Positions 3,035-19,302 of a stretch of 43,891 bases of DNA are shown here, piece after piece. Numbering within the stretch: the first letter of the stretch is position 1; each line of letters starts with the position of its first letter. The position numbers and the translations under genes are program-made. The notes beneath the pieces are model-generated. The model did not search any database. It saw only the letters and a list, made by a program, of their open reading frames with translations, and was not told where the DNA came from. The stretch is from positions 6,731 to 50,621 of the forward strand of contig JAPDLJ010000007.1 of the NCBI GenBank assembly GCA_025920705.1. The letters are read 5' to 3'. This DNA is from Candidatus Jingweiarchaeum tengchongense. GTDB taxonomy: Archaea; Nanobdellota; Nanobdellia; Jingweiarchaeales; Jingweiarchaeaceae.

Positions 3035-3502
3035 ATGAAAGTAGTTGGAATAAATTTGAGTCCAAACGAAAGAATGATTTCTGGTGTTTGTTTAATTGAA
3101 GGCTTAAATGTCTCTACATTTTCACCAAGGACCAATGAGCAGATCATGGAAATAATTAGTAGAGCCAGACCAGAAGTTGTCGCTATAAATGTACCATCTA
3201 ATTTAAATGAAAACAAAGACGAGATGGAAGAGTTCGAGATAAGGTTTACCAGGATAAAAAATAATATTGAGAGATACAGTGAAATAATCAAGACAAATAA
3301 TGAGACTGTGAAATCATTGTTAAAAGTGGATGAAAGTACAGATATATTTAAAAAATTCAATTTTAGACGAATGAACATCATAAGGAATCAATCTGAAAAA
3401 GATGCAATTCTGTGCGCGCTTGTTGCGCTTTTTTATAAAGAAGGGAAATACCAAAAGCTCGGGGATGAAAAGGGAGGTTTCATTTTCATACCATTAATCT
3501 AA
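3035..3502 (+). CDS. DUF429-like predicted RNase H-fold protein
   Basis: This 155-residue protein begins with a beta-hairpin (MKVVGINLSP) in which the usual catalytic Asp of RNase H-like folds is Asn. It then has a conserved-looking EVVAINVPS strand and ends with a helix, EKDAILCALVALFYKEGKYQ, followed by GG.IFIP. This terminal DA..CALVA...GK pattern is characteristic of DUF429 (predicted nuclease, RNase H fold). The assignment is by pattern memory. Replacement of the first acidic residue makes catalytic activity doubtful. Its stop codon overlaps the convergent aconitase-X gene by 4 nt. Confidence 0.55.
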   Translation: MKVVGINLSPNERMISGVCLIEGLNVSTFSPRTNEQIMEIISRARPEVVAINVPSNLNENKDEMEEFEIRFTRIKNNIERYSEIIKTNNETVKSLLKVDESTDIFKKFNFRRMNIIRNQSEKDAILCALVALFYKEGKYQKLGDEKGGFIFIPLI

Positions 3503-4956
3503 ATTGAAAATTTATTTATTATGTTTTTAATATCAGAAAAGAAAACTTTTTGCTTGCAAAAACTTGGCAAATACTTTGCTGCTTTGCATGAATTCGTAGC
3601 AACATAACGATACCCCATTTCTTCTATTGGTGAAACAACCATACAAGTATCTGCAACTACCATACCACCACTTTTCTCAATTTTTTTAACAAAACCTTTT
3701 CTTTCACAGATCTTTTTTATTTCTCTTGAAGTACAAATCCATAGATCAACGTTTTTCAGTTTTCTATTTTTTAGTAACATGGCAACTTCTCTTACCTCGT
3801 TGATAGAAGCATGTGGACACCCGATTGCAATTAAATCAACTTTTTCTGTGCTATTTAACTCATCATAAACTTTTTTTAATTCATTCTTTCCGAAAGAGAA
3901 TTTCTCATTGATTTTCGGTTTAACTTTCTTTAATTTTATTTCTGGAGTAATGTTCTCAATATGAAGCAAAGAAACTGCGCCTGAGGCAGCTGATGCTGCA
4001 CAAAGCGATTTCATACCCTCAATCGATATTTTTTTTACTCCTTTTATAATTGGAATTTTATCTCCACAAACTTTACCAATAAAAAAACCAAGTGTACTAA
4101 AATCAGATACATTCCTTAGCTTTGTTTGGACGTCTATTTCTATGCTTGGATTTCTCTCTTCTTGCTTATGCAATCCGTAATAAGGGGTTAGTCCTGTAAG
4201 CGCCGAAACTAAGCTCTTCGCGCTTCCTTCCCTGTTTGTCTTACAGCCCAAACAAGAATTTGCAAAACAAACTGCTGAGCTTTCAGCCCAAGCAATATGG
4301 GAACCAAATCTTGGACAATTCCCAATTAAATAAGGGGTGCATGTACATGTGGGTTCAATACCAAGCATTTTAAAGTAGTTTATGAGTTCCAATTGTCTTT
4401 CAGCAAATCTTTCTGGAATTTTCATTTCCTCCCATTTTTCTAGATCCATACCTGCTGGATTTAATGTGGTCATTACTCTGACTTTCAATTTTCTTTCAAT
4501 CATCTTTTTTACAAATTCTAAGCCACCATCTCCACAAGTTTTATAAGAAACACCTGCAACTTGTGCTGAATCAATTTTTATTAATTTTTCAGCGTTAGCT
4601 AATTCTGCCTCTCTCTTCAAATATGCTAAAAGTTTATTATCTATTCCTTTAATTTCCTCAATGTAAATCTTCTTCCTAACTTTTTTCTTACCTTTTATTT
4701 TTACTTGAATACCAACAAGCATTGATGGAAGAATGATTGGGTCTGGTTTTTGTAGAATGAATGCTCTCGGTGCTTTCCCATATCGGACAGATTCAAATAT
4801 TTTATATGTACCAACCGTCGAGCCAACTGAGTAAGGTAGTTCAACTATTTCATTAGCAATACTTTTACCTTCTAATTCGTGTCCCTTTTGCGTAATCACT
4901 CCTCTTTTTGGATCAAATCCATCAAGAAAAGAGACTGGTTGTTTTGTTCTTATCAT
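3499..4956 (-). CDS. Phosphomevalonate dehydratase, aconitase-X small and large subunits fused
   Basis: This 485-residue protein joins the swivel domain of aconitase X (former DUF126, about residues 6-90, with the GSTVG serine loop at 45-49) to the catalytic domain (former DUF521, about 100-485). The catalytic part has Cys-rich motifs at C204/C206 and C230/C235/C238 and the AESSAV.FANS...TNREG signature, suited to an Fe-S cluster. In archaea such proteins dehydrate mevalonate 5-phosphate to trans-anhydromevalonate 5-phosphate. Characterised archaeal enzymes use two separate chains, so the fusion is notable. The start overlaps the stop of the UbiD-like gene (ATGA), which encodes the next enzyme of the pathway. 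Confidence 0.85.
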   Translation of the reverse strand: MIRTKQPVSFLDGFDPKRGVITQKGHELEGKSIANEIVELPYSVGSTVGTYKIFESVRYGKAPRAFILQKPDPIILPSMLVGIQVKIKGKKKVRKKIYIEEIKGIDNKLLAYLKREAELANAEKLIKIDSAQVAGVSYKTCGDGGLEFVKKMIERKLKVRVMTTLNPAGMDLEKWEEMKIPERFAERQLELINYFKMLGIEPTCTCTPYLIGNCPRFGSHIAWAESSAVCFANSCLGCKTNREGSAKSLVSALTGLTPYYGLHKQEERNPSIEIDVQTKLRNVSDFSTLGFFIGKVCGDKIPIIKGVKKISIEGMKSLCAASAASGAVSLLHIENITPEIKLKKVKPKINEKFSFGKNELKKVYDELNSTEKVDLIAIGCPHASINEVREVAMLLKNRKLKNVDLWICTSREIKKICERKGFVKKIEKSGGMVVADTCMVVSPIEEMGYRYVATNSCKAAKYLPSFCKQKVFFSDIKNIINKFSI

Positions 4957-6251
4957 TTCTTTTTTACCCGAACAAATGTCTGAAACTTTTCCTCATCATT
5001 TAAAATTTCGAGCGGTAAAGTTGCATCTATACCCCATTTATTTCCTTTACCTATCTTATCAAGTGTTGATCCTGCTGCTTCATATTTTATAATGCCTCTT
5101 AAAGGGTCAAGTCTAGTTGCCTCTGCCCATTCAACTTCCTCCATGTTAAAAACATCTATATCATCATCAACAACAGTAACTTTTTTTAGGCTCGGATGGC
5201 CAGTAAACGCAGCCATGATTGCATTCTTTCCCTCATTTTCCTTTTTCTTTTTAATTGAGATAATTGCATGAAACCAATTGCATCCACCCCTTGTCAAATT
5301 TATTCTTTGTACATTTATTTCTGCTGATTGAAGGGCCCTGTATATCTTAGGCTCTTGTGGTAGTCCCATTAAAAGTTGATGTTCAGAAAATCCCGGTAAG
5401 AGTGCTTGATAAATTGGTTCTTTTCTGTGTGTAATTGCATTTATTTTTACCACATGTTCTTCTCTAATGATATCGTAAGTTCCTGTAATATCAATAAAAG
5501 GTCCTTCTTTCTCTTTTTTGTCTAAGAGTATTTCACCTTCCAAAACATAGTTTGAATTGGCTGGAACTTCCAAATCAATTGTTTTGCATTTGGTCATCTC
5601 AAGTTCTCGATTTAGTAAGCTCGAAGCAATTTCCATTTCAAATATTTCTCTTGGAACTTGCATTGAAGCTGCGATCAAACAGGCAGGTTCTGCGCCAATA
5701 CATATTGCAACCTTTGGATTTTCATTCCTTTCCTTGTGATTTTGTAGTATCTCATAAAGGTGACGTGGGACAATCCTAATCAAAAGCTCATCTTTATTCT
5801 TGACGAGCAATCTGTGTACGCTAGCATTTCTCCTTACCTTACCATTCTCTTTATCCTTTGCAATCACAAATCCAGCAGTAATGTACTTCCCAGCGTCTTT
5901 TTTGAAGTGCTTTAAAATTGGGATAGAATTGAGATCAACATCCTTCTCAATTACTTCTTGGCATTTAGCATTTTTAACCAGTTTTGTTGGAATTGGATTT
6001 TCCATTGCTTTCATTAACTTAAACAAAATTTCCTCTTTTTTTACACCAATGATACTTGCAATGTTTTCTCTGCTTGCAAATATATTTCCCACGACCTTTG
6101 TTTTATAGCCAGAAACACGCTCAAAGATTACTGGTCTTGGTTCGTATTTAATTAAATTTTCAGCAATTTCATACTCTGTTGAAACCTTATCCTTAATTCG
6201 AATTAAATCTCCATTCTTATCAAAAAGTTTTATTGTATCCTCTAGTTCCAT
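4953..6251 (-). CDS. UbiD-family decarboxylase, likely anhydromevalonate phosphate decarboxylase
   Basis: This 432-residue UbiD-family protein has characteristic segments: IGAEPACLIAAS, a VPREIFE turn, VPANSNYVLEGE and EGPF..ITGTYD. These enzymes use prenylated FMN, made by a UbiX partner that is not in this window. Because it is translationally coupled (4-nt overlap) to the fused phosphomevalonate dehydratase, I infer that it decarboxylates trans-anhydromevalonate 5-phosphate to isopentenyl phosphate in the archaeal mevalonate pathway. The final D/ITG of the EGPF motif differs from the common GE.TG of aromatic decarboxylases. An aromatic acid substrate is the less likely alternative. Confidence 0.85.
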   Translation of the reverse strand: MELEDTIKLFDKNGDLIRIKDKVSTEYEIAENLIKYEPRPVIFERVSGYKTKVVGNIFASRENIASIIGVKKEEILFKLMKAMENPIPTKLVKNAKCQEVIEKDVDLNSIPILKHFKKDAGKYITAGFVIAKDKENGKVRRNASVHRLLVKNKDELLIRIVPRHLYEILQNHKERNENPKVAICIGAEPACLIAASMQVPREIFEMEIASSLLNRELEMTKCKTIDLEVPANSNYVLEGEILLDKKEKEGPFIDITGTYDIIREEHVVKINAITHRKEPIYQALLPGFSEHQLLMGLPQEPKIYRALQSAEINVQRINLTRGGCNWFHAIISIKKKKENEGKNAIMAAFTGHPSLKKVTVVDDDIDVFNMEEVEWAEATRLDPLRGIIKYEAAGSTLDKIGKGNKWGIDATLPLEILNDEEKFQTFVRVKKK

Positions 6252-8581: not shown

Positions 8582-8666
8582 GATAGATTTAAAAAGAGTA
8601 TAGGATTTAATTTTATTGGTCAAATTAGGAAAACGCTTATTAAATAATTTCTTTTCTTTTTATTCC

Positions 8667-10430
8667 ATGCGGATCGCTGTGGTGAGGAAGGATCGATGTA
8701 AGGGTGGAATAGATTGTGATTACTTATGTAGAAAATTCTGCCCAAAAGTTAGAGCAAAGCAAGATGCAATAAAGATTGGTGAGGATAATAAACCAATTAT
8801 TGATGAAAATCTTTGCATTGGATGTGGTATATGTATAAAGAAATGCGCTTTCAATGCGATTTCAATTGTAAATATTCCGGAGAAAATAGAAAGTAAAGTA
8901 ATCCATCGATATGGTAAAAATGGATTTGTATTGTGTAGATTCGCAATACCTAGATTCGGGAAAATAATTGGTATTCTTGGAAGAAATGGAATTGGTAAGA
9001 CAACAACACTCAACATCCTTTCTGGAAAACTTAAGCCAAACTTTGGAAACATAGAAGCAAAAATAGAGGAAAGAGACATAATAAACTTTTTTAGAGGAAC
9101 GGAAACCCAGAAGTACTTTAAAGACTTATTTGAAGGTAAGATAAGGGTCTCTGTTAAACCACAGCACATCGATGTCTTATCAACATTCAAGGGGAGTGTA
9201 GTTAATTTCCTAGAAAATTTTGGTTCGCATGAAAGAATGATGGAACTTGCAAATTTGCTAGGAATTCAAGACATTTTGGATAGAAGAGTGCAAAATTTAT
9301 CTGGTGGAGAATTACAGAGGGTCGCAATCGCGGCTTGCTTACTAAGGGATGCAAACGTTTTTTTCATTGATGAACCATCTAGTTATCTTGACATAAAACA
9401 ACGTTTGAATGTATGTAAAATAATAAGAAAAAAGTCAAATGAGAATAATTGTATATTCGTAGTTGAGCATGACTTAATTGCGCTGGATTACATGTGTGAT
9501 TTCATTCACATTATGTTTGGTGAAGAAGGTGTTTATGGAATCATGTCTAATCTTCTTGGGAGTAGAGAAGGAATAAACAGTTTTATTAACGGTTATCTTA
9601 GAGATGAAAACATAAAATTCAGAGAGTATCAAATAAAATTTGAAACGAAGCTGCCAACAAGAGCAATAGATAGTGCCATATCATTGGAATGGCCCAGATT
9701 AGAAAAAAATTTAGGTACCTTCAAACTCGTTGTGAATCCTGGAAGAATATCTGTAAATGAAGTGATAGGGATCATTGGGGAAAATGCAATTGGTAAGACA
9801 ACATTTGCAAAAATTATAGCAGGTGAACTTAATCCTGATAATTGTAAATTGGATTTAAACATCAAAATTTCTTACAAACCACAGTACATCGAAATAGAAA
9901 GCAGAGAAAGTGTAAGGGAAGTTTTATCAAAAATAAATAAAAATTTTATGAGCGAAGAATATAGAAATTTTTACATATCACTTGGTGTTCATCACTTATT
10001 TGATAAAAGAATAAATGAACTGTCTGGTGGGGAACTGCAAAGTGTTGCAATTGTAAGTTGTCTGCTTAGGGAAGCAGATCTTTACCTCCTTGATGAACCA
10101 TCAGCACATCTAGATGTTGAACAAAGAATTACGATTGCAAAAATAATTAGGGACTTTGCAAAAATGAAGAAAAAAAATGTATTCGTGATTGACCATGATT
10201 TGCTATTCATTGATTACTTAAGTGATAAATTACTCGTGTTTACTGGCACACCTTCTAAACAAGGGATTTGTAGTGGCCCTTATGAGATGAGGGAAGGAAT
10301 GAACATGTTCTTAAAAGAGATTGGGATCACATTCAGGAGGGATGACGTTACGAATAGACCTAGACCAAACAAATTAGATTCTGTCAAAGATAGGGAACAG
10401 AAAGAAATTGGAGAGTATTATTATGACTAA
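8667..10430 (+). CDS. abce1: ABCE1 / RNase L inhibitor-type ribosome recycling ATPase
   Basis: This 587-residue protein has the full ABCE1 layout. An N-terminal twin [4Fe-4S] domain carries eight cysteines (C11, C17, C21, C25, C50, C53, C56, C60). Two ABC ATPase domains follow, with Walker A loops (GRNGIGKTT and GENAIGKTT), signature motifs (LSGGELQR and LSGGELQS) and D-loops (EPSSYLD and EPSAHLD). ABCE1 splits the ribosome after termination together with aRF1 or Pelota. The ATG at 8667 gives the conserved MRIAVV start; an upstream in-frame GTG would add a 17-residue extension without family support. Confidence 0.97.
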   Translation: MRIAVVRKDRCKGGIDCDYLCRKFCPKVRAKQDAIKIGEDNKPIIDENLCIGCGICIKKCAFNAISIVNIPEKIESKVIHRYGKNGFVLCRFAIPRFGKIIGILGRNGIGKTTTLNILSGKLKPNFGNIEAKIEERDIINFFRGTETQKYFKDLFEGKIRVSVKPQHIDVLSTFKGSVVNFLENFGSHERMMELANLLGIQDILDRRVQNLSGGELQRVAIAACLLRDANVFFIDEPSSYLDIKQRLNVCKIIRKKSNENNCIFVVEHDLIALDYMCDFIHIMFGEEGVYGIMSNLLGSREGINSFINGYLRDENIKFREYQIKFETKLPTRAIDSAISLEWPRLEKNLGTFKLVVNPGRISVNEVIGIIGENAIGKTTFAKIIAGELNPDNCKLDLNIKISYKPQYIEIESRESVREVLSKINKNFMSEEYRNFYISLGVHHLFDKRINELSGGELQSVAIVSCLLREADLYLLDEPSAHLDVEQRITIAKIIRDFAKMKKKNVFVIDHDLLFIDYLSDKLLVFTGTPSKQGICSGPYEMREGMNMFLKEIGITFRRDDVTNRPRPNKLDSVKDREQKEIGEYYYD

Positions 10431-10433
10431 ATA

Positions 10434-11270
10434 TCACACAAGCATTGCTATTCTTATTATATCTCTTACTGCAGGTGCCATACCAAGAATATAGATGCAA
10501 ACCCTTAGAAAATCGGAAAGTTGCTTATCTTCTGAATGCTTCTGTATCAAGTAGATTATTGGTAAAACAATAAAAATTTTTAATAAATACATTACCGAAG
10601 CGCTTCCAAAGAAAAGCGAAATAAAAAAGTTCGGTACTACATGCTGTTCTATGTATCCATATGTTGGAAAAAAATCTAAGCTCACAAATGTGGCTGTTGC
10701 ATCAGCAATGTGCGCTGCAAACGGTATGAAATTCATTTTATCTTGGAGAAATTTTAATAAATTTGTTGAATTGGCTAAAAATCTGAATGTAAGTAAAAAT
10801 GCAAATAGAAAGCTAAAGAAATAAAGGAATGCGATCGAATTTACGATCTTGATGTATGGTAATAATGGAAGTAGAAAAAAAATCCCAACAACAAGAATGA
10901 ATTTATGAAGTTTAATTTTCTCTTTCTTTTCAAGAAACAATCCAACTAATATTGTTATAATTACAGGTAAGAATGTTAGTATGTAAATTCCAGGTGTGAT
11001 GAACCAAAATGAAAATGGGAGTATTTTGGCATCCTCAAGTACTCTCAAAATTGAACCAAAAAAAATGAATGGTGTAATACCTAGCATAAAATTCGCATCA
11101 AATTCAATTTTAACCTTGTATTTCTTACTCATCCAATAAAAAAATGAATTTAATAGATATATTGCGATGATTAGGATAACACCATAAACAATTGTGTTCA
11201 CGGGATTATAACCCTCATTTTCTATTATTGGTTTTATAAAAAATTCATGTAAGAAATTGCTTAGATTCAT
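10434..11270 (-). CDS. DUF63 family membrane protein
   Basis: This is a polytopic membrane protein of 278 residues with about seven or eight hydrophobic helices. The GYNPVNTI.YG stretch near the N terminus and FGS.LRVLEDA after the third helix are the conserved signatures of archaeal DUF63 proteins. I favour the ATG at 11270 with GTGAG as ribosome-binding site over the GTG at 11282. It is placed right behind the small coiled-coil gene at 11272-11589, nearly touching its stop. The function of DUF63 is unknown; family recognition is by motif. Confidence 0.8.
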   Translation of the reverse strand: MNLSNFLHEFFIKPIIENEGYNPVNTIVYGVILIIAIYLLNSFFYWMSKKYKVKIEFDANFMLGITPFIFFGSILRVLEDAKILPFSFWFITPGIYILTFLPVIITILVGLFLEKKEKIKLHKFILVVGIFFLLPLLPYIKIVNSIAFLYFFSFLFAFLLTFRFLANSTNLLKFLQDKMNFIPFAAHIADATATFVSLDFFPTYGYIEQHVVPNFFISLFFGSASVMYLLKIFIVLPIIYLIQKHSEDKQLSDFLRVCIYILGMAPAVRDIIRIAMLV

Positions 11271-11271
11271 T

Positions 11272-11589
11272 TTATCTCTCACTAATCATGTGTTCCAAAA
11301 ATGTCAAGCGTTGATCTATCCTTTCAACAATCACTTTAATTGACTCAATTTTTGTTGAGAGTAATTCAAGTTGGCTTTTTATTAGTTCAGTATCACTCTT
11401 CGTTTGTGTTAATGGTGCTTGTGTACTCATACCTAACTGCAACTCTGGTGGCAATCCTGGTGATTGAATTGGTGGTGTTGGTACAGCAGGTTCGGCATAT
11501 TCTGGAAAGGCTCCAATATCTCCACTGTAATCTTCTTCCTTCTTCCTCAACAATGGAATCTTGTTTCTTATACTATCAACAACACCCAT
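11272..11589 (-). CDS. Small Pro-rich coiled-coil protein
   Basis: This 105-residue protein has a basic N-terminal segment (about 1-18), an acidic patch, a Pro/Ala-rich linker (about 28-60) and a C-terminal coiled coil of about 40 residues (LIKSQLELLSTKIESIKVIV and following) with regular hydrophobic spacing. No catalytic motif is visible. A GGTGATAAAATG ribosome-binding region precedes the ATG at 11589. The C-terminal helix suggests oligomerisation or docking. It lies divergent from the orphan gene at 11678 and just upstream of the DUF63 gene, so it may work with either. No named family recognised. Confidence 0.65.
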   Translation of the reverse strand: MGVVDSIRNKIPLLRKKEEDYSGDIGAFPEYAEPAVPTPPIQSPGLPPELQLGMSTQAPLTQTKSDTELIKSQLELLSTKIESIKVIVERIDQRLTFLEHMISER

Positions 11590-11677
11590 TTTATCACCTT
11601 CTATTTTTTAACTATTCAAAATTTTTTTAAACTTATAAAACCTTACATTCACTATAAAGGTGCACAAGAGGTACAAA

Positions 11678-13006
11678 ATGGTAAAAAGAGTATATTACCT
11701 ACAAATACCTGGTTTACCTACACATTGGAGAAAAAAGAAAGTAATATTTGAAGACGGAAAAGCACTTATTCAGAAATGGGAGTTAATATACGATTCTGGT
11801 GATGCACTTGAACCGTTCTATTATACCGCTACTGATTTACTTAGGGCTGCAGGTGTGAAGTTGGTCAAGCTCGTTGATTACTATGCATTCTCTGAAAGGA
11901 GTCAAGAGTGGGGACAAATGGAAATGAAAAAATACTATCAGACACAGAATGCAATGGCATTATTAAAATCAATCCAAGATATGTATCGCTCTTTAATTGG
12001 AATGGAAAAGGACTTACAAAGGGTGAATGAATGTTTGGATTACTATAAAGAAAAGAAGGGACAACCACCTGATCTTGTATTAAAAGGTATATGGGTTGAC
12101 TTCATTGATTCTAGACTTGGAGCCGGTAGTATACAAGTAATGTCACAACAAACACAATTTTTTCCATTGAGAGATTGGTTTTTTGTTGCGCAAGATGTAA
12201 AAGATGTGGATAAACTTGAAACAAACGAGAGAATAAAAAACATATTAAAAAGAAAACTTACGGAATATGAGGCTTGGAAAAAGTATTGGAAGGACAGTTT
12301 GGAAAAGATGAAGAAGGTACTCGAGGAGCGCATCAATGCACAGCAAAAATCAATTGAATTGTATAAAGATTGGGCAAAGCCACTCATAAGAAATGTAACA
12401 GAATTGGAGCAAGCACTTAAAGGAAACAATTTTCTTAGGTGGATAAGCCCTGACATAATTAAAATCGGAGAAACGGTGTACTCATATGTGAAACTAATTG
12501 GATATCGAGATGTTTTCGAAAATGAGGATAATAGGTATCTATTTAGAGACTATGTTCCTTGCGTTGAAATTGATTTTGTATTGCGTGGTAGCTCACCTCG
12601 AGGTGCAATGAAAACAACGATGACGGTAAAAGCAATGATATATGAAGCGGATGAACTAAAAAGAATAATTGAAGAAGCAAAGAAAGATAAGATGGAAGAA
12701 TGGTTCAAGAATTTGTATTTAAGTGCTGGTGGTGAGGAAAAAGAAAAGGTAAAAAAGAAAGAAGAGAAGAAAAAGGAAAAAAGTGAAATACAAACATTCT
12801 TTGAAACACTTAGTGGTAAGGAATGGATGGGAATGAGAAATGCTTGGGTTCAATGTCTGGAGGATGCGTGGTTAGCATATGATGTAACAAAGAAGGTATT
12901 AAAAATTGAATCTTGGCCTTATAAATATCCTGTACCTTTTGATTCCTTTGGTACAATATTACCGACAATAAGGAGAAAGAAGAAGGCACCCTGGACAACA
13001 CAATAA
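11678..13006 (+). CDS. Orphan helical protein, 442 aa
   Basis: This first plus-strand gene of an unusual cluster encodes 442 soluble-looking residues. Residues about 90-260 are largely helical with long Lys/Glu-rich coiled-coil stretches. An alpha/beta-looking section follows (PCVEIDFVLRGSSPRGAMKT), then a Lys/Glu linker (about 345-365) and a Trp-rich C-terminal section (EWMGMRNAWVQCLEDAWLAY). The ATG at 11678 has a good GAGGT site 5 nt upstream. I recognise no family, catalytic motif or membrane segment. Its neighbours are a coiled-coil protein, a TIM-barrel protein and nucleotidyltransferases, so a structural or scaffold role in one assembly is possible but unproven. Confidence 0.75.
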   Translation: MVKRVYYLQIPGLPTHWRKKKVIFEDGKALIQKWELIYDSGDALEPFYYTATDLLRAAGVKLVKLVDYYAFSERSQEWGQMEMKKYYQTQNAMALLKSIQDMYRSLIGMEKDLQRVNECLDYYKEKKGQPPDLVLKGIWVDFIDSRLGAGSIQVMSQQTQFFPLRDWFFVAQDVKDVDKLETNERIKNILKRKLTEYEAWKKYWKDSLEKMKKVLEERINAQQKSIELYKDWAKPLIRNVTELEQALKGNNFLRWISPDIIKIGETVYSYVKLIGYRDVFENEDNRYLFRDYVPCVEIDFVLRGSSPRGAMKTTMTVKAMIYEADELKRIIEEAKKDKMEEWFKNLYLSAGGEEKEKVKKKEEKKKEKSEIQTFFETLSGKEWMGMRNAWVQCLEDAWLAYDVTKKVLKIESWPYKYPVPFDSFGTILPTIRRKKKAPWTTQ

Positions 13007-13056
13007 TCTTCATCTAATTGTAAGGATTTTAAATTTGAGAAATTTACGGTGTCTTG

Positions 13057-13635
13057 ATGAAAAATGAAAATGACATTCTTAAAAATTTGATTGAAGATCT
13101 GAAAAAAATGAAGAGTCTAAAAGAGAAAATTTCCTTTCTTGAAGAGAAACTCAAGGAAGTTAAAAACAAATCAATAAAGGAAAGAATTTTCATGCTGATT
13201 CAATTATTAAAAAGTGGTAGAGGGATACCAACATCCCAGGAATTACCAACGGGTGGAATACTAACAGTAGAAGAATCAAGCGAAAGGTTGGAGGATTTGG
13301 TCATCGAAGAGGAGAGAGGGCCAGTGGTTGTAAGTGCTGAACCACTAAAAACAAATGAACCAAAAATCCAAGGATATTTAAATAGAGGGGAAATTAAGGC
13401 AGACTACATTCCTGGAATGAGGGAAACAGAAGAATTACAAGTCGGCGGATATCTGAGGATTGAAGAAGAGAGCAGAGGAGAAAGTAATGTTGGTGGTGAA
13501 ATACTGTCCAACAATTTTAGAGAACTTCAACCTAAAATTGACCTGAAAACAGGTGTGGATGAAATACAAAATCAAATAAAGAGAGAATTAATAAAGAAAT
13601 ATAAACCTAGATTAAAAATAGAAGAGGAAGATTAA
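13057..13635 (+). CDS. Orphan coiled-coil protein, 192 aa
   Basis: This 192-residue protein has an N-terminal coiled coil (about 1-52, LKKMKSLKEKISFLEEKLKE) and a long, probably disordered acidic middle. The middle contains two similar Gly-containing segments, EPKIQGYLNRGEIK and EELQVGGYLRIEEE, that look like short linear repeats. A C-terminal basic helix follows. The ATG at 13057 has GGTG five bases upstream, preferable to the TTG just before it. The stop is one base from the TIM-barrel gene start, implying tight cotranslation. No family recognised; the layout suits an adaptor that binds partners through the repeated segments. Confidence 0.7.
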   Translation: MKNENDILKNLIEDLKKMKSLKEKISFLEEKLKEVKNKSIKERIFMLIQLLKSGRGIPTSQELPTGGILTVEESSERLEDLVIEEERGPVVVSAEPLKTNEPKIQGYLNRGEIKADYIPGMRETEELQVGGYLRIEEESRGESNVGGEILSNNFRELQPKIDLKTGVDEIQNQIKRELIKKYKPRLKIEEED

Positions 13636-13636
13636 G

Positions 13637-15247
13637 ATGGCATATTCCCAAGATAACAAGGGAGTACATGGTTACTTTTCTAAGTATTGGTTTGGTGTAG
13701 CAGCACCTATCACAGTAGCGGAGCATAAGGCAGTAGATTACTCAATAAGATGGGGTGCAAAACAAATAGAGCTCGGAAATTTTCCAACAAAAGTGGGCGA
13801 CACTGGGAGACAAGTTCTAAAGGAGCTCGCAAAGGTAAACAAGCTCGAATACACGTATCATTTTCCATTTGCTCCTGAATATTACACGGACTTATCAATT
13901 CCTGAACCTGAGCAGCAAAGAAGAGTAAGAGAAACACTCGAAGAGTCTTATAAATACATGAAAGATGTTGGGGCAAAGGTAATGGTCGTACATCCAACTA
14001 CCTTACCAAGAGATGAAGTTGATAGATTTCTTGCATGGGATGAAGCAGAAAGAACATTTGTTCCGATTAAAATAAGAAAAGAAGTCTTTGATGAGGTAAT
14101 GGCAGATTTTAGAAATAAAGGAATGGACATTCCACAAGTTAAATCGGTTGTTGACTTACCTGTTGACATTAGAAATAAAGTGATAGAAGAGGCAAGAAAA
14201 AGAAGTTTTGAAGAGCAAGAGAAATTAATAAAAAGTGAGATTCTAACGAGCATTTCATTCCATCGACATTGGTATGAATACTACCAAGAACAAGCAAAGG
14301 CATATCAGGATTTGGCTGAAAAAGCTAGAATGTTGAGAACACAATCTGGAAAATTGAATGATGAAATAATAAAAGATATTGCCAGACAAGTAGGTATACC
14401 TATTTACGTAACAAAAGAAGACATTGAGAAAGATATCTCGCTCCAAGAAAAATTGAAAAGGGTAGAGGAGGAAGCGAGGAGAAAAGCAGAAGAAGTCAGA
14501 TTCAAATTTGTTGAGCCAGAGAAACTTAGAGTGGAGGCTTATGAGAAGAGATATAAAAGATTCCTGCCTCCAGAGGTTGGTGGAAAGGGAGAAAATGTCC
14601 TAAATGATGCAAAACAAAAGATGGTAGAGTCAGTTGTTCAAAATCTTTTACCCTATGCTGAAAGGGCATGTAGGGACGGAATAAAGATTGCAATTGAAAA
14701 CCTACCTTCACAAATGGCTTTTTCAACACCAGAAGAAATAGCAGCTGTGGTTAATAGATTACACAGTGAACTAAGAAAAAGAGGAATAAGTAATCCTGAA
14801 GAATACATAGGTGCGACATTTGATATGGGACATGCAAATACAATGAGAGGTATTCTTGGTTATGGTCCTGATAGGTTTTTGGAAGAATTGAGAAAAAGAG
14901 GTGTGCCTATAAAAGAAGTCCATGCTGCATATGAGCGATTACTCGGAGAACATTTGCCTGTGGGTGAAGAACCAGGTAAAGGCATAGAAATGTGGGAAAA
15001 AATAAAAGCTGCACTTGAGAAAGCTGGTTTCAAAGGACCTATTACAATGGAAAGTGGTGAGATGGGTGGGATTGGGTACTACATAAGCTTACAAAAAGCA
15101 TTCCCTAGCTACTTTTCACAATATGGAATTCCATTTGTTGGTGATATAACAGGTAGAGCTAATATTTATGCCACGGTATATGATCCAATTCATATTGATA
15201 AAAGAGAGCATTACTTTACAGAGAGTTTTATTGGTTCGCCGTTGTGA
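13637..15247 (+). CDS. Xylose isomerase/endonuclease IV-like TIM barrel with large helical insertion
   Basis: This 536-residue protein contains most of the metal ligands of the AP-endonuclease-2/sugar isomerase TIM barrel: H75 (YHFP), H119 (VVHPTT), E354 (IENLP), D396 and H399 (FDMGHA), H429 (EVHAA), H439 (GEHLPVG) and E472 (MESGE). The normal DxH motif is GEH here, so one expected aspartate is Gly437. Residues about 125-330, between strands 4 and 5, are a roughly 200-residue Lys/Glu-rich helical insertion absent from usual barrels of about 280 residues. It could be a sugar or sugar-phosphate epimerase or a DNA/RNA phosphodiesterase. It sits one base after the coiled-coil gene and 9 nt before a nucleotidyltransferase gene. 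Confidence 0.8.
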   Translation: MAYSQDNKGVHGYFSKYWFGVAAPITVAEHKAVDYSIRWGAKQIELGNFPTKVGDTGRQVLKELAKVNKLEYTYHFPFAPEYYTDLSIPEPEQQRRVRETLEESYKYMKDVGAKVMVVHPTTLPRDEVDRFLAWDEAERTFVPIKIRKEVFDEVMADFRNKGMDIPQVKSVVDLPVDIRNKVIEEARKRSFEEQEKLIKSEILTSISFHRHWYEYYQEQAKAYQDLAEKARMLRTQSGKLNDEIIKDIARQVGIPIYVTKEDIEKDISLQEKLKRVEEEARRKAEEVRFKFVEPEKLRVEAYEKRYKRFLPPEVGGKGENVLNDAKQKMVESVVQNLLPYAERACRDGIKIAIENLPSQMAFSTPEEIAAVVNRLHSELRKRGISNPEEYIGATFDMGHANTMRGILGYGPDRFLEELRKRGVPIKEVHAAYERLLGEHLPVGEEPGKGIEMWEKIKAALEKAGFKGPITMESGEMGGIGYYISLQKAFPSYFSQYGIPFVGDITGRANIYATVYDPIHIDKREHYFTESFIGSPL

Positions 15248-15256
15248 GGTGGTCTT

Positions 15257-16108
15257 ATGAAGGAAAAAATTGAGAGTCTGGCTGACATTAAGAGAAGGAT
15301 TGGTGGAAAAAAAGAATTGAGTGAAAAAGATCTCGAAGTTAAAAAGGAAGAACTTGAACTGATAAACAACTTTTGCTCCAAATTGGTAGAGAATTTTGGT
15401 GGTTACATTCATGCAGTCATTGTCTTTGGTTCATTTGCAACTGAAGAAATGAAAGAAAAGAGTGACATTGATGTACTTGTACTTGTTGATGATCTACTTG
15501 TCCCAGCAACGAGCGATGTAGTTGGTGCGTTTAGGGTTGGATTAGCAAAAATACTCGCAGAATTGAATGCAGTGGATAAACTTCACGTGAATACACTCGG
15601 AATAAAAGAATTTTGGGATGGTGTGAGAAATGCTGATCCAGTGATTGTAGATACATTGAGAAAAGGTTTTGCAGTTGTGGATACCGGATTCTTTGATCCG
15701 CTAAAAAGATTGTTAATTGAGGGTAGGATAAGGCCGACGCAGGAAAGTATTGAAGCGCACATAAAAAGAGCAAAGGCAATGATATTCGCTTCAAAGCAGC
15801 ATCTATTTTTAAGCATTGACGACTTATATTGGGCAACGATTGATAGTGCGCATGCAGCTTTAATGGCAAATGGTATTTTACCTCCTTCACCGGGTGATGT
15901 TCCTAATGTTTTAGAGAGGGAATTTTTAAAAAAGAAGAAGGTTACAAAAGAAGACGTGGATTTCGTAAAGGATATCTATAATACAATGAAAAAGATCACA
16001 AAGGGTGAAAAGAAAGAAATCAGTGCTGCAGAAATAGAGAGAATGATAAAAAGAACTAAAAAATTCGTTGATAAGATGGAGAAGCTCATCAAGCAAAAAC
16101 AAAATTAA
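15257..16108 (+). CDS. Nucleotidyltransferase with C-terminal helical domain (paralogue A)
   Basis: This 283-residue protein has a short coiled N terminus and a minimal nucleotidyltransferase domain: VIVFGSF (G58-S59) then SDIDVLVLVD (D70, D72). A helical C-terminal half follows, with FW..VR...P, LRKGFAVVDTGFF and later helices that loosely resemble HEPN-type partners. The usual third acidic residue is not obvious; the matching strand reads LHVNTLG. A GAGGTGGT site precedes the ATG. It is clearly paralogous to the gene at 16854. MNT-type enzymes AMPylate or otherwise modify proteins and RNAs; here the substrate is unknown. Confidence 0.75.
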   Translation: MKEKIESLADIKRRIGGKKELSEKDLEVKKEELELINNFCSKLVENFGGYIHAVIVFGSFATEEMKEKSDIDVLVLVDDLLVPATSDVVGAFRVGLAKILAELNAVDKLHVNTLGIKEFWDGVRNADPVIVDTLRKGFAVVDTGFFDPLKRLLIEGRIRPTQESIEAHIKRAKAMIFASKQHLFLSIDDLYWATIDSAHAALMANGILPPSPGDVPNVLEREFLKKKKVTKEDVDFVKDIYNTMKKITKGEKKEISAAEIERMIKRTKKFVDKMEKLIKQKQN

Positions 16109-16133
16109 ATCAATTAAAAAATAAAATCAAGCT

Positions 16134-16703
16134 TTAGCCCTTTATTCCGTATTTTGCCTTCACTGCATTGTACAAGTTCTGTATGTATGCACCGTAAGAT
16201 TGACCTATCGCGTTTTGATTTAATCCAGCATATGCGCCAATGAAACCCAATATGTTACCTGAAACTTGATCTACCATGTTTCCTGCTCCTGAAATCACAG
16301 CTGCTTTTTCTCCCTTGTCCTTTGCTTTTCCTAGTGCTTCGCCAATCTTTGCTTCAAGTTCTGATAATGTTCTGTTTATTCCACTTAATGTTCTTCCAGC
16401 AAATTCTGAACTTACGATTGCCCTTAAACTGCCGCTTACCTCAGCCATGTTCTCTGGAAGATTGGCAACCTGATACAATCTTGCTGTTCTTACAATTTCA
16501 TCGTCACTTTTGAATGCCCTGTTCAATACTTGATTTAGCATATCCTGTGCAATGTCTGGATCTGAATGTAATAGCACACCTGGCTTCGCTAGTACCTTCA
16601 ATATGTTAATCTGTGCTGCTCTTATGTTTGAACCGAATGCTGCGTCTTTGGCAAATTGGAATCTCCCTAATCTTTCCTCCAAACTTGGTTCTGGTGTTGC
16701 CAT
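16134..16703 (-). CDS. Orphan Ala-rich helical protein, 189 aa
   Basis: This 189-residue protein is rich in Ala, Gly and Asn and appears all-helical, with a final section of mild hydrophobicity (ILGFIGAYAGLNQNAIGQSYG) that is not long or greasy enough to call a firm membrane helix. It is the only minus-strand gene inside the run of orphan genes, flanked by the two nucleotidyltransferase paralogues. GGTGATAAAAT precedes the ATG at 16703, a strong ribosome-binding site. The compact, small-residue composition suggests a structural or self-assembling protein, but this is inference only. No family recognised. Confidence 0.7.
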   Translation of the reverse strand: MATPEPSLEERLGRFQFAKDAAFGSNIRAAQINILKVLAKPGVLLHSDPDIAQDMLNQVLNRAFKSDDEIVRTARLYQVANLPENMAEVSGSLRAIVSSEFAGRTLSGINRTLSELEAKIGEALGKAKDKGEKAAVISGAGNMVDQVSGNILGFIGAYAGLNQNAIGQSYGAYIQNLYNAVKAKYGIKG

Positions 16704-16774
16704 ATTTTATCACCAATCAGTAATAACACTTCCCTATTTATATACTTTTCGGTAGTGAAAATTTTATAAAACAA

Positions 16775-16798
16775 AGGTGAAAAATCATCTTTTTACCT
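16775..16798. promoter_or_regulatory. Imperfect inverted repeat in divergent intergenic region
   Basis: Between the divergent genes starting at 16703 and 16854, an imperfect hairpin is formed by AGGTGAAAAA and TTTTTACCT around a 5-base loop, with one bulged G. It lies where both promoters would be, so a shared control site is possible. Because it is very AT-rich, chance is a realistic alternative. Confidence 0.25.
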
Positions 16799-16853
16799 AA
16801 AAATTTCCAACAACTATATAAATTAAGCATATTTAAATCTTATTGTGATTGTT

Positions 16854-17879
16854 ATGACTAGGAAGAAAAAAGAAGAAGAAAAAAAGGAAGAAACGAGTGA
16901 AGAGGTGGGTGAAGAGGGAGAAGAGGCACCCAAACCAAGCTTGGTTTCTGATTTTCTCGCTCAGAAGGATGCAAGAGACGTGCAGACCTATACGCAAGCT
17001 GTTGTTCAAAAATTTGGCAAATACATAAAAAGTGTTGTTGTTTGGGGATCTCAAAAAACAGGAATTGGAAAGAAGAGGAGTAGTGATATAGATATCGCAA
17101 TAATTGTGGACGACACTGATGTAAGAAGGATGACAAGACCAGAGCTAAAAGAAAAACTTTTTCAAAGACTTTGTGAAATGGGATTTCCAATTTCAAAAAA
17201 AATTCATCCCCAACCATATCTCCTCACTGAGTTTTGGGAATACATACGCGAGGGAAATCCTGTCCTTTATAATGTTTTAAGAGATGGTATCGTTGTTTTT
17301 GATACTGGATTCTTCTTACCAATACAAATGTTAATGAAAGCTGGAAATATAACTCCAAGTAAGGAAGCGATTGACAAGCATATCACAGTAGCAAATGAAT
17401 TACTAAAATTGACAAAAGACACGATCACAACAAAACTCACATATGATCTGGAACAGGCTGTCGTTGCAAGTACTCAAGCTGTTTTAATGGAGCTTGGATA
17501 CAGGCCACCCGCGCCAAGAGAAATTCCAAGTTTTGTTAAAGAGATTTTGGTTGATAAAGAAAAATTAGTTGATGAAGGATTTTATGAAATTGCGAGAGAT
17601 GTGATAAAGTTATACAAAGATGTTGAACATAAGGAGAAAAAAGAGGTCAGCGGGGAGGAGATAGACAAGTATTACAAATTAACTGAAGAATATGTAAAAA
17701 AGATGAGTGATATACTTGCTAACATTAGGAAAGAAAAAGGAGAAAAATGGTTATTTGAAGTATACGAAAAAGCTGAAAGGAAGGAAATAAAGAGGGATGG
17801 TATTATCACGTTAGAAAGAAAGGAAGATATCGACAAAAAGGCTGAGAAATTGATCAAAGAGGACTTGGGACAAAGATGA
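16854..17879 (+). CDS. Nucleotidyltransferase with C-terminal helical domain (paralogue B)
   Basis: This 341-residue paralogue of the 15257 gene has an extra Lys/Glu-rich N-terminal tail (1-28). Its nucleotidyltransferase core reads VVVWGSQ (G65-S66) and SDIDIAIIVDD (D78, D80). The shared pattern FW..(I/V)R..(N/D)PV...LR.G..V.DTGFF.P and a final helix KE(V/I)S..EI shows descent from one ancestor. As in paralogue A, the third catalytic acid is not evident (the strand reads KIHPQPY). A TATA-like element near 16831 and GTGAT before the ATG support this start. A C-terminal extension of about 50 residues is not shared. Function unknown. Confidence 0.75.
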   Translation: MTRKKKEEEKKEETSEEVGEEGEEAPKPSLVSDFLAQKDARDVQTYTQAVVQKFGKYIKSVVVWGSQKTGIGKKRSSDIDIAIIVDDTDVRRMTRPELKEKLFQRLCEMGFPISKKIHPQPYLLTEFWEYIREGNPVLYNVLRDGIVVFDTGFFLPIQMLMKAGNITPSKEAIDKHITVANELLKLTKDTITTKLTYDLEQAVVASTQAVLMELGYRPPAPREIPSFVKEILVDKEKLVDEGFYEIARDVIKLYKDVEHKEKKEVSGEEIDKYYKLTEEYVKKMSDILANIRKEKGEKWLFEVYEKAERKEIKRDGIITLERKEDIDKKAEKLIKEDLGQR

Positions 17880-17889
17880 TGCTGGGATT

Positions 17890-18933
17890 ATGGTCAAGGT
17901 TCCAGATAATTTAGATGAGGTGGTAAGTGAACTTAAAAAACTTAATGTCAACACATCAATACTTTATACTAACACAACGTATGTGATCAAAAAGAAAAAG
18001 AGGAATAAAGGTTTTCTAAATCCTTACAACATAAGAAAAAAATGTTTAGAAGATCTTATAAACTTCTGTGAAAATGATGCTAAAAATTTGAAAGAACAAA
18101 AAAAGGTTGAATTCATAAAATCCGCATTGTTGAATAGAAAGCCAGTAAAGATCGATGATTACATTCAATATTTATGCAAAGAATCAAGGAATAAGATTAG
18201 AGCACTTGACCAACCATACAAAAGAAAGGAAATAAAAGAAATAGCTGAAAATGAATTAAGGATATTTTTGCTGGGAAATGAAAAACGCGCTACAGAAACT
18301 TATTCTCATCGAACTGTATTAGAAAGATTTAGACCTGGTATTTATGCGTTTAATTTTAAGGATTTTAATGAAGTAGTGTCAAAAAAGTCTGGAGTAAGTT
18401 ATGGTGATAAAGTGGCTGCAAGAGAAAATTTTCCCATACCTCACACCTACAGATTGACTTTGACCAGAGATAAGGATAAATTAAATGAAGCCGTTACTCG
18501 TTCGCAATCTTGTTTAGCCCCAAGCAATATTAAAGAGCACTGCAATGATGCTGGAACTTTGAATTTTTTGTTGAAGGTAGATAATAGAATCGTTGGATAT
18601 GAGAGGCTTTTTACTTGTGTAACAGATAGAAATGAACCTGTACTGGTGCTTGACAATTTAGAATGTCATAATAAGGATTTTATGACTCACATCGATGATG
18701 TCATAGCAATGGGATTGGCAGCGATAAATTTGATGTTCGATGCTAATTTCAAGTATTTAATTGGTGATGAAGAACGGGCTTCATTTGGATTAAGGCAAGC
18801 TTTCAGTAACTTAGATAGGAATTTTAGACTCAGAAAACTTGGAGACCCAGATGTCACAAATTATTGTTTTGATCTGACAAATGATTTCGAGAAAAAAGAA
18901 GCATATGTATTGATGGAAAATTGGATGAGATAA
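17890..18933 (+). CDS. Orphan Cys-containing protein, 347 aa
   Basis: This 347-residue protein follows paralogue B by 10 nt, so it is probably cotranscribed. Residues 1-150 are helical and basic. The second half has alternating strands (HTYRLTLTRD, NFLLKVDNRIVGYERLF, VLVLDNLEC) followed by helices, an order that vaguely recalls a GNAT-type acetyltransferase fold, but no acetyl-CoA P-loop is clear. About nine cysteines are spread along the chain, including SQSCLA and EHCNDAG, so metal binding or disulfides are possible. No secure family. It closes the orphan cluster and abuts a convergent gene with no gap. Confidence 0.7.
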   Translation: MVKVPDNLDEVVSELKKLNVNTSILYTNTTYVIKKKKRNKGFLNPYNIRKKCLEDLINFCENDAKNLKEQKKVEFIKSALLNRKPVKIDDYIQYLCKESRNKIRALDQPYKRKEIKEIAENELRIFLLGNEKRATETYSHRTVLERFRPGIYAFNFKDFNEVVSKKSGVSYGDKVAARENFPIPHTYRLTLTRDKDKLNEAVTRSQSCLAPSNIKEHCNDAGTLNFLLKVDNRIVGYERLFTCVTDRNEPVLVLDNLECHNKDFMTHIDDVIAMGLAAINLMFDANFKYLIGDEERASFGLRQAFSNLDRNFRLRKLGDPDVTNYCFDLTNDFEKKEAYVLMENWMR

Positions 18934-19302
18934 TTATGACTTAAGTTCTCTATACATCTCATCAACTATTCTTTTGTTTACATGATTGCGATGATGTCTA
19001 AAACCACCAGCAAATCTTTTTGGTATGTGAAGTAACTCATGAATAATCGTTTTTTCTTTCTCTTCCTCGCTCAATTTATCAAATCTTTCTGAGATCACTT
19101 CAATCACATAATGCGCTCTTATTCCAAGCGCTTTTTGCCATATCCTTGGCAGCGCATAGCATCTTGCAATCGTATATCTCGATTTTGATCCATAACTGCG
19201 CATAAAGATTACACGACTAGTATCTATGTGGCTCAAATCCAATTTCTGTATCATTTTGATGGCTTTTTCTTTAATATCATCTGCTGGCTGAAATTTTATC
19301 AT
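18934..19302 (-). CDS. Putative zincin-type metallopeptidase domain protein
   Basis: This 122-residue protein has an HExxH zinc motif (H88-E89-L-L-H92) followed by PKRFAGG and a His-rich FRHHRNH segment (H103, H104, H107) that can supply a third ligand. This matches small archaeal/phage-type predicted metallopeptidases. It has no signal peptide, so it acts in the cytoplasm. It is divergent from trm1. The catalytic motif is intact, but the substrate is unknown and peptidase activity is inferred from the motif only. Confidence 0.7.
   Translation of the reverse strand: MIKFQPADDIKEKAIKMIQKLDLSHIDTSRVIFMRSYGSKSRYTIARCYALPRIWQKALGIRAHYVIEVISERFDKLSEEEKEKTIIHELLHIPKRFAGGFRHHRNHVNKRIVDEMYRELKS

Follow-up and report, generated by a model that had tools for sequence, protein, structure and literature searches.

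A gene set kept across the phylum Nanobdellota encodes a candidate housekeeping complex with a metallo-barrel and two MNT-HEPN nucleotidyltransferases

Six of the eight genes at 11272-18933 of the window (the whole analyzed stretch of 43,891 nucleotides from Candidatus Jingweiarchaeum tengchongense), namely A105, B442, C192, D536, E283, and G341 (hereafter A, B, C, D, E, and G), belong to a set that is kept phylum-wide and mostly in the same order. These genes very probably constitute a conserved functional module, and it is likely that their products form a physical complex. More tentatively, we propose that B-C-D-E together with the nearby G and A specify a phylum-wide housekeeping complex with a write/erase role. 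An ORF check of the window located all eight ORFs, which are listed here with the adjoining DUF63 gene.

10434-11282, minus strand: DUF63 membrane protein (PF01889; Pfam E=2.1e-65), beside A at 10-12 loci
11272-11589, minus strand: A105, with relatives in the same divergent slot beside B at about nine loci
11678-13006, plus strand: B442, putative new family and candidate scaffold (350/371 genomes; AlphaFold model)
13057-13635, plus strand: C192, small linker protein (ORF in the B-D slot at 21 loci)
13637-15247, plus strand: D536, MJ1311/Endo IV-type TIM barrel (142/147 genomes; 3wqo match)
15257-16108, plus strand: E283, MNT NTase-HEPN/UPF0332-like fusion (GSX10DXD; PDB 2hsb match)
16134-16703, minus strand: F189, orphan helical protein outside the conserved set
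16854-17879, plus strand: G341, paralogue of E by sequence, next to B in some lineages
17890-18933, plus strand: H347, near-orphan outside the conserved set

Two of the eight ORFs, A (11272-11589) and F189 (16134-16703), lie on the minus strand, indicating that the block is not one operon. B-C-D-E is a single plus-strand unit (11678-16108) with gaps of 50, 1, and 9 bp. A overlaps the DUF63 gene and is divergent from B, F189 is convergent on E, and G and H347 are a separate plus-strand pair. The Pfam scan detected AP_endonuc_2 in D (E=3.7e-19) and NTP_transf_2 in E (6.9e-9) and G (8e-5), with both NTP_transf_2 matches exceeding the Pfam cut-offs, which confirms the two nucleotidyltransferase cores and the one TIM barrel that the earlier note had recognized. 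No significant domain match was obtained for A, B, C, F189, or H347 in the Pfam and curated-family profile scans.

Occurrence was counted in genomes of one phylum (Nanoarchaeota/Nanobdellota). B was found in 350 of 371 genomes, and in 234 of 243 when the good ones were considered. Among 147 genomes, B and D were present in 142 each and the E/G family in 146. B, D, and E/G are near-universal, their co-occurrence is far beyond chance, and the order B-(C)-D-E is conserved. Both B and D had coordinates in 129 genomes, 106 of which have the two genes on one contig; in 101 of these 106 genomes, D follows B on the same strand at a distance of no more than 8 kb, and in 97 the distance is no more than 3.5 kb. 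E follows D at related loci, and relatives of A and C recur in the same slots. G adjoins E or B in several lineages. In one lineage (f13) the neighbors of B are G and ribosomal L35Ae in place of D-E, which indicates that G is linked to B independently. Flanking families other than B/D/E each recur in 12 of the 41 loci at most. Whether the DUF63 gene is a member of the conserved set is uncertain. The set was probably inherited vertically. A scan of genome contigs with D gave one partial match, in Methanolobus, with no relative of B on the contig or in the genome, a result that carries little weight for the occurrence of the set outside this phylum.

The earlier note had treated the eight genes as one block. 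In the comparison across genomes that it had suggested, A, B, C, D, E, and G co-occurred, whereas F189 had no match in the 146 other genomes (1/147) and H347 was found in one other genome only (2/147). The eight-gene unit was rejected because F189 and H347 are not conserved. A chance grouping of unrelated genes, which does hold for these two, is refuted for B, D, and E by the B-D adjacency in 101 of 106 genomes of a phylum that loses most flanking order, and has a negligible probability as an explanation of the set.

D is an MJ1311/Endo IV-type metallo-barrel by its fold and metal-site pattern. In the model of D (pLDDT 78.2), a metal-binding TIM barrel carries a coiled-coil hairpin inserted at residues 176-306, with an arm of ~60 residues, and ends in a disordered tail (491-536); the C-terminal tail is conserved among relatives. 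D matched PF01261 (AP endonuclease 2 superfamily) with 69.8 bits against a cut-off of 31.1, and MJ1311 (PDB 3wqo) was its best match in sequence (E=1.5e-22) and fold (TMt 0.78). The two proteins share the barrel and the metal-ligand pattern including D-x-H-L...G-x-G, although D is twice as long as MJ1311, with the inserted coiled-coil arm and the conserved C-terminal tail. H75, H119, E354, D396, H399, H429, and E472 were invariant in 44 relatives and fall on what we take to be seven of the nine Endo IV-type ligand positions; the D-x-H pair is mostly kept, and H-x-E is found in some. In the D of the window, the Asp of D-x-H is replaced by Gly (LLGEH), resulting in G-x-H. Endonuclease IV (Nfo) and CbiR share metal-ligand positions with D, and phosphodiester chemistry occurs in the superfamily. 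D differs from both in its long insert and in scoring below both family cut-offs: no match to TIGR00587 (Endonuclease IV, Nfo) was listed at E<=1, and NF041277 (CbiR) gave 28 bits, below the curated cut-off of 105 bits. CbiR is an example of phosphodiester hydrolysis within the superfamily of D (PMC7733943). A separate Endo IV-like protein of ~260-330 aa was found in 82 of 119 genomes, and the possibility that D is the only Endo IV of the organism was therefore rejected.

The fold matches of D also included many D-tagatose/psicose 3-epimerases, as would be expected if the set served sugar-phosphate or nucleotide-sugar metabolism with D as an epimerase or isomerase and E/G as nucleotidyl- or sugar-binding partners. 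However, the best match, MJ1311, is not a proven epimerase, position 439 of D is His in 38 of 44 relatives where epimerases have Arg, and no further sugar genes are conserved at the locus. We consider this explanation quite improbable.

E and G have an MNT-HEPN architecture, in which a single fused protein contains both domains in place of separately encoded toxin and antitoxin. The two are ancient paralogues with 29% identity over 253 aa (E=1e-34). In most relatives, G is a 600-680 aa form with an additional degenerate N-terminal NTase domain (hhalign probability of 98.7 for the tandem domains). The GSX10DXD motif (G58, S59, D70, and D72) was invariant in 27 of 27 E/G proteins. The HEPN part of E matched PDB 2hsb (E=2.5e-4); the HEPN RNase motif RX4-6H was missing in 21 of the 27 proteins, and the six matches were sporadic. 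In MntA, GSX10DXD was shown to carry out AMP transfer, and D71 is the third Mg ligand (PMC7641770). When the strand of this ligand was matched by eye in E/G, 22 of the 27 proteins had His at the position and the other 5 had Asn or Ser. Since there is no Asp counterpart of MntA D71, E/G may bind a nucleotide without transferring it.

A DPANN MNT-HEPN family, cls.004259 (NEQ050), was described by Makarova et al. in 2019 as present in 36 of 67 genomes in a 'house-keeping context' and of unknown function; it was called most probably a TA module and its unusual conservation was noted (PMC6393860). Like E/G, it is an MNT fused to HEPN and conserved in DPANN, and by this description E/G probably correspond to cls.004259. 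That paper neither describes an operon nor connects the family with B or D, and it does not divide E/G into two paralogous lines; we found no description of a B-C-D-E operon in the literature. MNT and HEPN are the parts of type VII toxin-antitoxin systems, and E/G share the GSX10DXD motif and the HEPN fold with HepT/MntA; together with the weak matches that the NTase core gave in PADLOC, this would suit a type VII toxin-antitoxin or anti-phage defense module. E/G nevertheless differ from HepT/MntA in that they are fused and near-universal, mostly lack the RNase motif, and have the third Mg ligand replaced. A near-universal rather than patchy occurrence, the conserved order with D and B, the lack of PHROGs matches, and PADLOC matches confined to the generic NTase core also argue against such a module, which is very unlikely. 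The suggestion of the earlier note that the block could be a defense system was abandoned on account of this distribution, the synteny, the housekeeping neighbors, and the generic nature of the PADLOC matches. PHROGs gave no match for any protein of the block, B relatives were not found in a scan of viral contigs, and no viral fold matched at E<=0.001; a viral origin was thus rejected.

The note had also suggested RNA processing and sugar modification, both of which are possible functions of the gene set. In an RNA- or tRNA-processing or repair complex, D would cut or trim RNA or DNA, E/G would bind or extend the ends, and B would hold the parts. The Endo IV-like site of D, the presence of Pol-beta-superfamily NTases with HEPN, which are common in RNA biology, and the finding that in several lineages the G locus adjoins genes for ribosomal L35Ae, Trm1, and TFB are consistent with this. 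However, these genomes are so small that housekeeping genes adjoin almost anything, the third catalytic Asp is absent from E/G and the HEPN RNase motif from most of them, and the separate Endo IV-like protein in 82 of 119 genomes indicates that D is not a simple replacement. We regard RNA processing as unlikely.

The AlphaFold model of B (pLDDT 76.9) consists of a beta-rich head and a long antiparallel coiled coil of 60 residues formed by helices 76-125 and 184-243. No fold relative was found at E<=0.001 in PDB or BFVD (viral models), and a Pfam scan of 35 B proteins yielded one-off weak matches only. B represents a new family. Compared by description, B could be cls.004340 (NEQ484), a DPANN-only 'alpha helical protein, typically in house-keeping context' (PMC6393860), although that family is described as helical and B is predicted to have a beta-rich head as well. 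A has a short N-terminal MGxxDxxK helix, a Pro-rich linker, and a C-terminal coiled coil. ORFs in the C slot (21 loci) showed very low sequence conservation, and several C relatives have a C-terminus that reads like K-x-Y-K-x-R; C is probably largely disordered.

This anatomy could also suit a structural or membrane scaffold in which D, E, and G are nucleotide- or metal-dependent building blocks or sensors and not classical enzymes. The long coiled coils modeled for B and D, the small coiled-coil protein A with its amphipathic start beside the membrane protein DUF63, the disordered connectors with conserved ends, the altered NTase active site, and the tandem pseudo-NTase of long G are in line with such a scaffold. 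On the other hand, the invariance of the metal ligands of D and of GSX10DXD in E/G points to retained chemistry or tight ligand binding, and we consider a purely structural role to be about as improbable as RNA processing.

In the proposed write/erase complex, B would be the scaffold and would hold D via the matching long coiled coils, which form arms in both models. The flexible connectors would be C, A, and the D tail, and A, which combines a short N-terminal helix with a coiled coil, may anchor the complex at the membrane. GSX10DXD would serve E/G in binding NTP-Mg, and, by analogy with MntA acting on HepT, E/G would place a nucleotide on another member of the complex or sense one there. 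D, as an Endo IV/CbiR-like metallo-hydrolase, would remove the nucleotide or cut a phosphodiester. E/G and D may in this way work in opposition, as a write/erase pair linked to some core process. The earlier proposal of a scaffold with a barrel enzyme and two nucleotide-using subunits fits the anatomy of the set and is a candidate model of it. The conservation of the set is shown, but the write/erase chemistry is inferred and rather doubtful: E/G have no Asp that corresponds to MntA D71, the D-x-H motif in the D of the window has Gly for Asp, sugar epimerases are among the fold matches of D, and no NMP-acceptor site was identified in the module.

Few non-essential genes survive in reduced DPANN genomes. 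A set that is present in ~95% of the phylum in a mostly fixed order, with no assigned function, is a strong candidate for symbiont-specific core machinery, and B, which has no detectable fold relative, adds to this candidacy. It is possible, though less likely than not, that the set is an undescribed near-universal machine that defines this phylum of very small, symbiotic DPANN archaea, in which a membrane-tethered scaffold (A, B, and C), nucleotide writers (E and G), and a metallo-phosphoesterase eraser (D) would control a core process. The 2019 remark on a DPANN MNT-HEPN family in a 'house-keeping context' can now be extended to a system for which partners are proposed, the chemistry can be tested, and a defined list of proteins for joint purification is available.

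All eight open reading frames reported by the earlier note were found at their places in the window, whose genome comprises 1.1 Mb in 40 contigs. B442, C192, D536 and E283 (numbers are lengths in aa) form a single plus-strand unit with intergenic gaps of 50, 1 and 9 bp, and G341 and H347 form a second, separate plus-strand unit. The other two genes lie on the opposite strand:

11272-11589, minus strand: A105, overlapping a DUF63 gene and divergent from B
16134-16703, minus strand: F189

In the search of the eight block proteins, Pfam and NCBIfam recognised none of A, B, C, F and H, and gave NTP_transf_2 for E and G and AP_endonuc_2 for D, in agreement with the earlier reading of a nucleotidyltransferase (NTase) core in two genes and a barrel in one. 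E and G are paralogues with 29% identity across 253 residues.

The proposed neighbourhood comparison was run on genomes that all belong to one class of one phylum, inferred from this, from their sizes and from the literature to be GTDB Nanoarchaeota/Nanobdellota. With the D sequence alone as query, relatives turned up in 50 of the 280 genomes in the class. Relatives of B, D and E were adjacent in 20 stretches around these; in about 10 of them, DUF63 and a relative of A lay upstream in divergent orientation. By profile, B was detected in 350 of 371 genomes (234 of 243 good genomes) and, in a count over 147 genomes, in 142; over 147 genomes D was found in 142 and E/G in 146. B, D and E/G are thus near-universal among the genomes searched. 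The eight-gene grouping holds for these and for the recurring A and C, but not for F189, which had no relative in any other genome searched, or H347, which had a relative in just one.

Gene order was counted from the best B and D coordinates in the 129 genomes for which both were listed, excluding 23 with B and D on different contigs of draft assemblies. In 101 of the 106 one-contig genomes, D came downstream of B in the same orientation and no more than 8 kb away, and in 97 no more than 3.5 kb away. D was followed by E in most loci read. Most flanking genes vary; outside B/D/E, no family occurred in more than 12 of 41 loci, which had been selected for containing D or B. In one lineage (L124-L127), B is apart from D-E and stands divergently beside G, ribosomal L35Ae, Trm1 and TFB, so that G is tied to B through a different arrangement. 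L35Ae adjoins G in many loci. In the window, G and Trm1 are separated by H347 and a PhageMetallopep (PF18894) gene (17890-19302), a place taken by L35Ae in related loci; this stretch is possibly a lineage-specific insertion. An ABCE1-like ATPase at 8616-10430 (plus strand), with a ferredoxin-type N-terminus and two ABC domains as read from the translation, adjoins DUF63-A in about 10 related loci. At 3499-6251 (minus strand), AcnX (aconitase X, 485 aa) adjoins a UbiD-family gene (432 aa). They are a pair of the modified archaeal mevalonate pathway and suggest that this tiny archaeon may produce its own isoprenoid precursors.

The D model (pLDDT 78.2, pTM 0.72) showed a TIM barrel followed by a disordered tail. 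After the H119-bearing strand the barrel is interrupted by a hairpin of coiled coil, formed by residues 176-235 and 266-306. Its best solved relative, both by sequence and by fold (TMt 0.78), was MJ1311 (PDB 3wqo). H75, H119, E354, D396, H399, H429, G443 and E472 were invariant in 44 divergent D proteins. The His of a D-x-H motif at 437-439 was present in 38 of the 44, whereas D-tagatose 3-epimerases have Arg at this position; in the window's own D, Gly replaces the Asp. These positions are putatively assigned to the Endo IV ligand set. The C-terminal end of D (15200-15247 in the window) reads G-x-P-[ML]-E or a close variant across much of the phylum and is preceded by a variable, probably disordered stretch, as would be expected of a docking peptide. 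A distinct short Endo IV-like protein was present in 82 of 119 genomes, which argues that D has its own role. The window's own genome encodes such a protein of about 285 aa (contig C23, 850-1503), which fell under the Nfo cut-off.

E and G consist of an N-terminal MNT NTase domain and a HEPN/UPF0332-like domain (PDB 2hsb, E=2.5e-4). The nucleotide-binding motif, GSX10DXD, is intact and was invariant in 27 E/G proteins. The strand matching D71, the Mg ligand of the AMP-transferring NTase MntA (PMC7641770), carried His in 22, Asn in 4 and Ser in 1 of the 27, and RX4-6H was missing from 21. This changed third-ligand position is the chief evidence against real nucleotide transfer. In most lineages G has 600-680 aa, with an extra degenerate NTase domain at the front (hhalign probability 98.7). 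Such tandem NTases, in which the degenerate domain precedes the GSX10DXD domain, were seen at L043 (5575-7497), L045 (4179-6131), L137, L138, L139 and L140; a second HEPN-like repeat is weakly indicated behind the latter domain.

The AlphaFold model of B, a 442-aa family without a Pfam match, was built from 35 sequences (pLDDT 76.9, pTM 0.60) and showed a head rich in beta structure and two long helices, 76-125 and 184-243, that run antiparallel. The structure-based search suggested earlier for B, with Foldseek against PDB and BFVD, gave no match at E<=0.001; since the pTM is modest, a distant fold relative could have been missed. C is a hardly alignable ORF that separates B from D in 21 loci; it has 154-234 aa and in several genomes ends near K-x-Y-K-x-R. 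A begins with MGxxDxxK, is rich in Pro in its middle and carries a coiled coil at the C-terminal end; it may tether to the membrane. The ending -GQR occurs in G of several genomes and in A of two (LGQR in the window's G, ending at 17879, and in G of L033; YGQR in A of L033 and L038), and is possibly a docking tail common to A and G.

Makarova et al. 2019 (PMC6393860) described two DPANN-conserved families of unknown function that each have a housekeeping context, one being MNT-HEPN (NEQ050) and the other an 'alpha helical protein' (NEQ484). The former is very likely E/G, and the latter may be B, as a candidate match. Castelle et al. 2021 (PMC8204110) reported families specific to Woesearchaeota/Pacearchaeota, mostly lacking a function. 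No description of the operon was found in the open-access literature searched. Because D and E/G fall in known superfamilies, the novelty applies to the whole system, a conserved and ordered set that combines a barrel resembling metallo-hydrolases with NTase-HEPN proteins and a new type of coiled-coil protein. By analogy with AMP transfer by MntA (PMC7641770) and phosphodiester hydrolysis by CbiR, a member of D's superfamily (PMC7733943), the set may write and erase a modification: B would scaffold D by coiled-coil arms and recruit E/G, E/G would attach or sense a nucleotide, and D would hydrolyse a phosphodiester.
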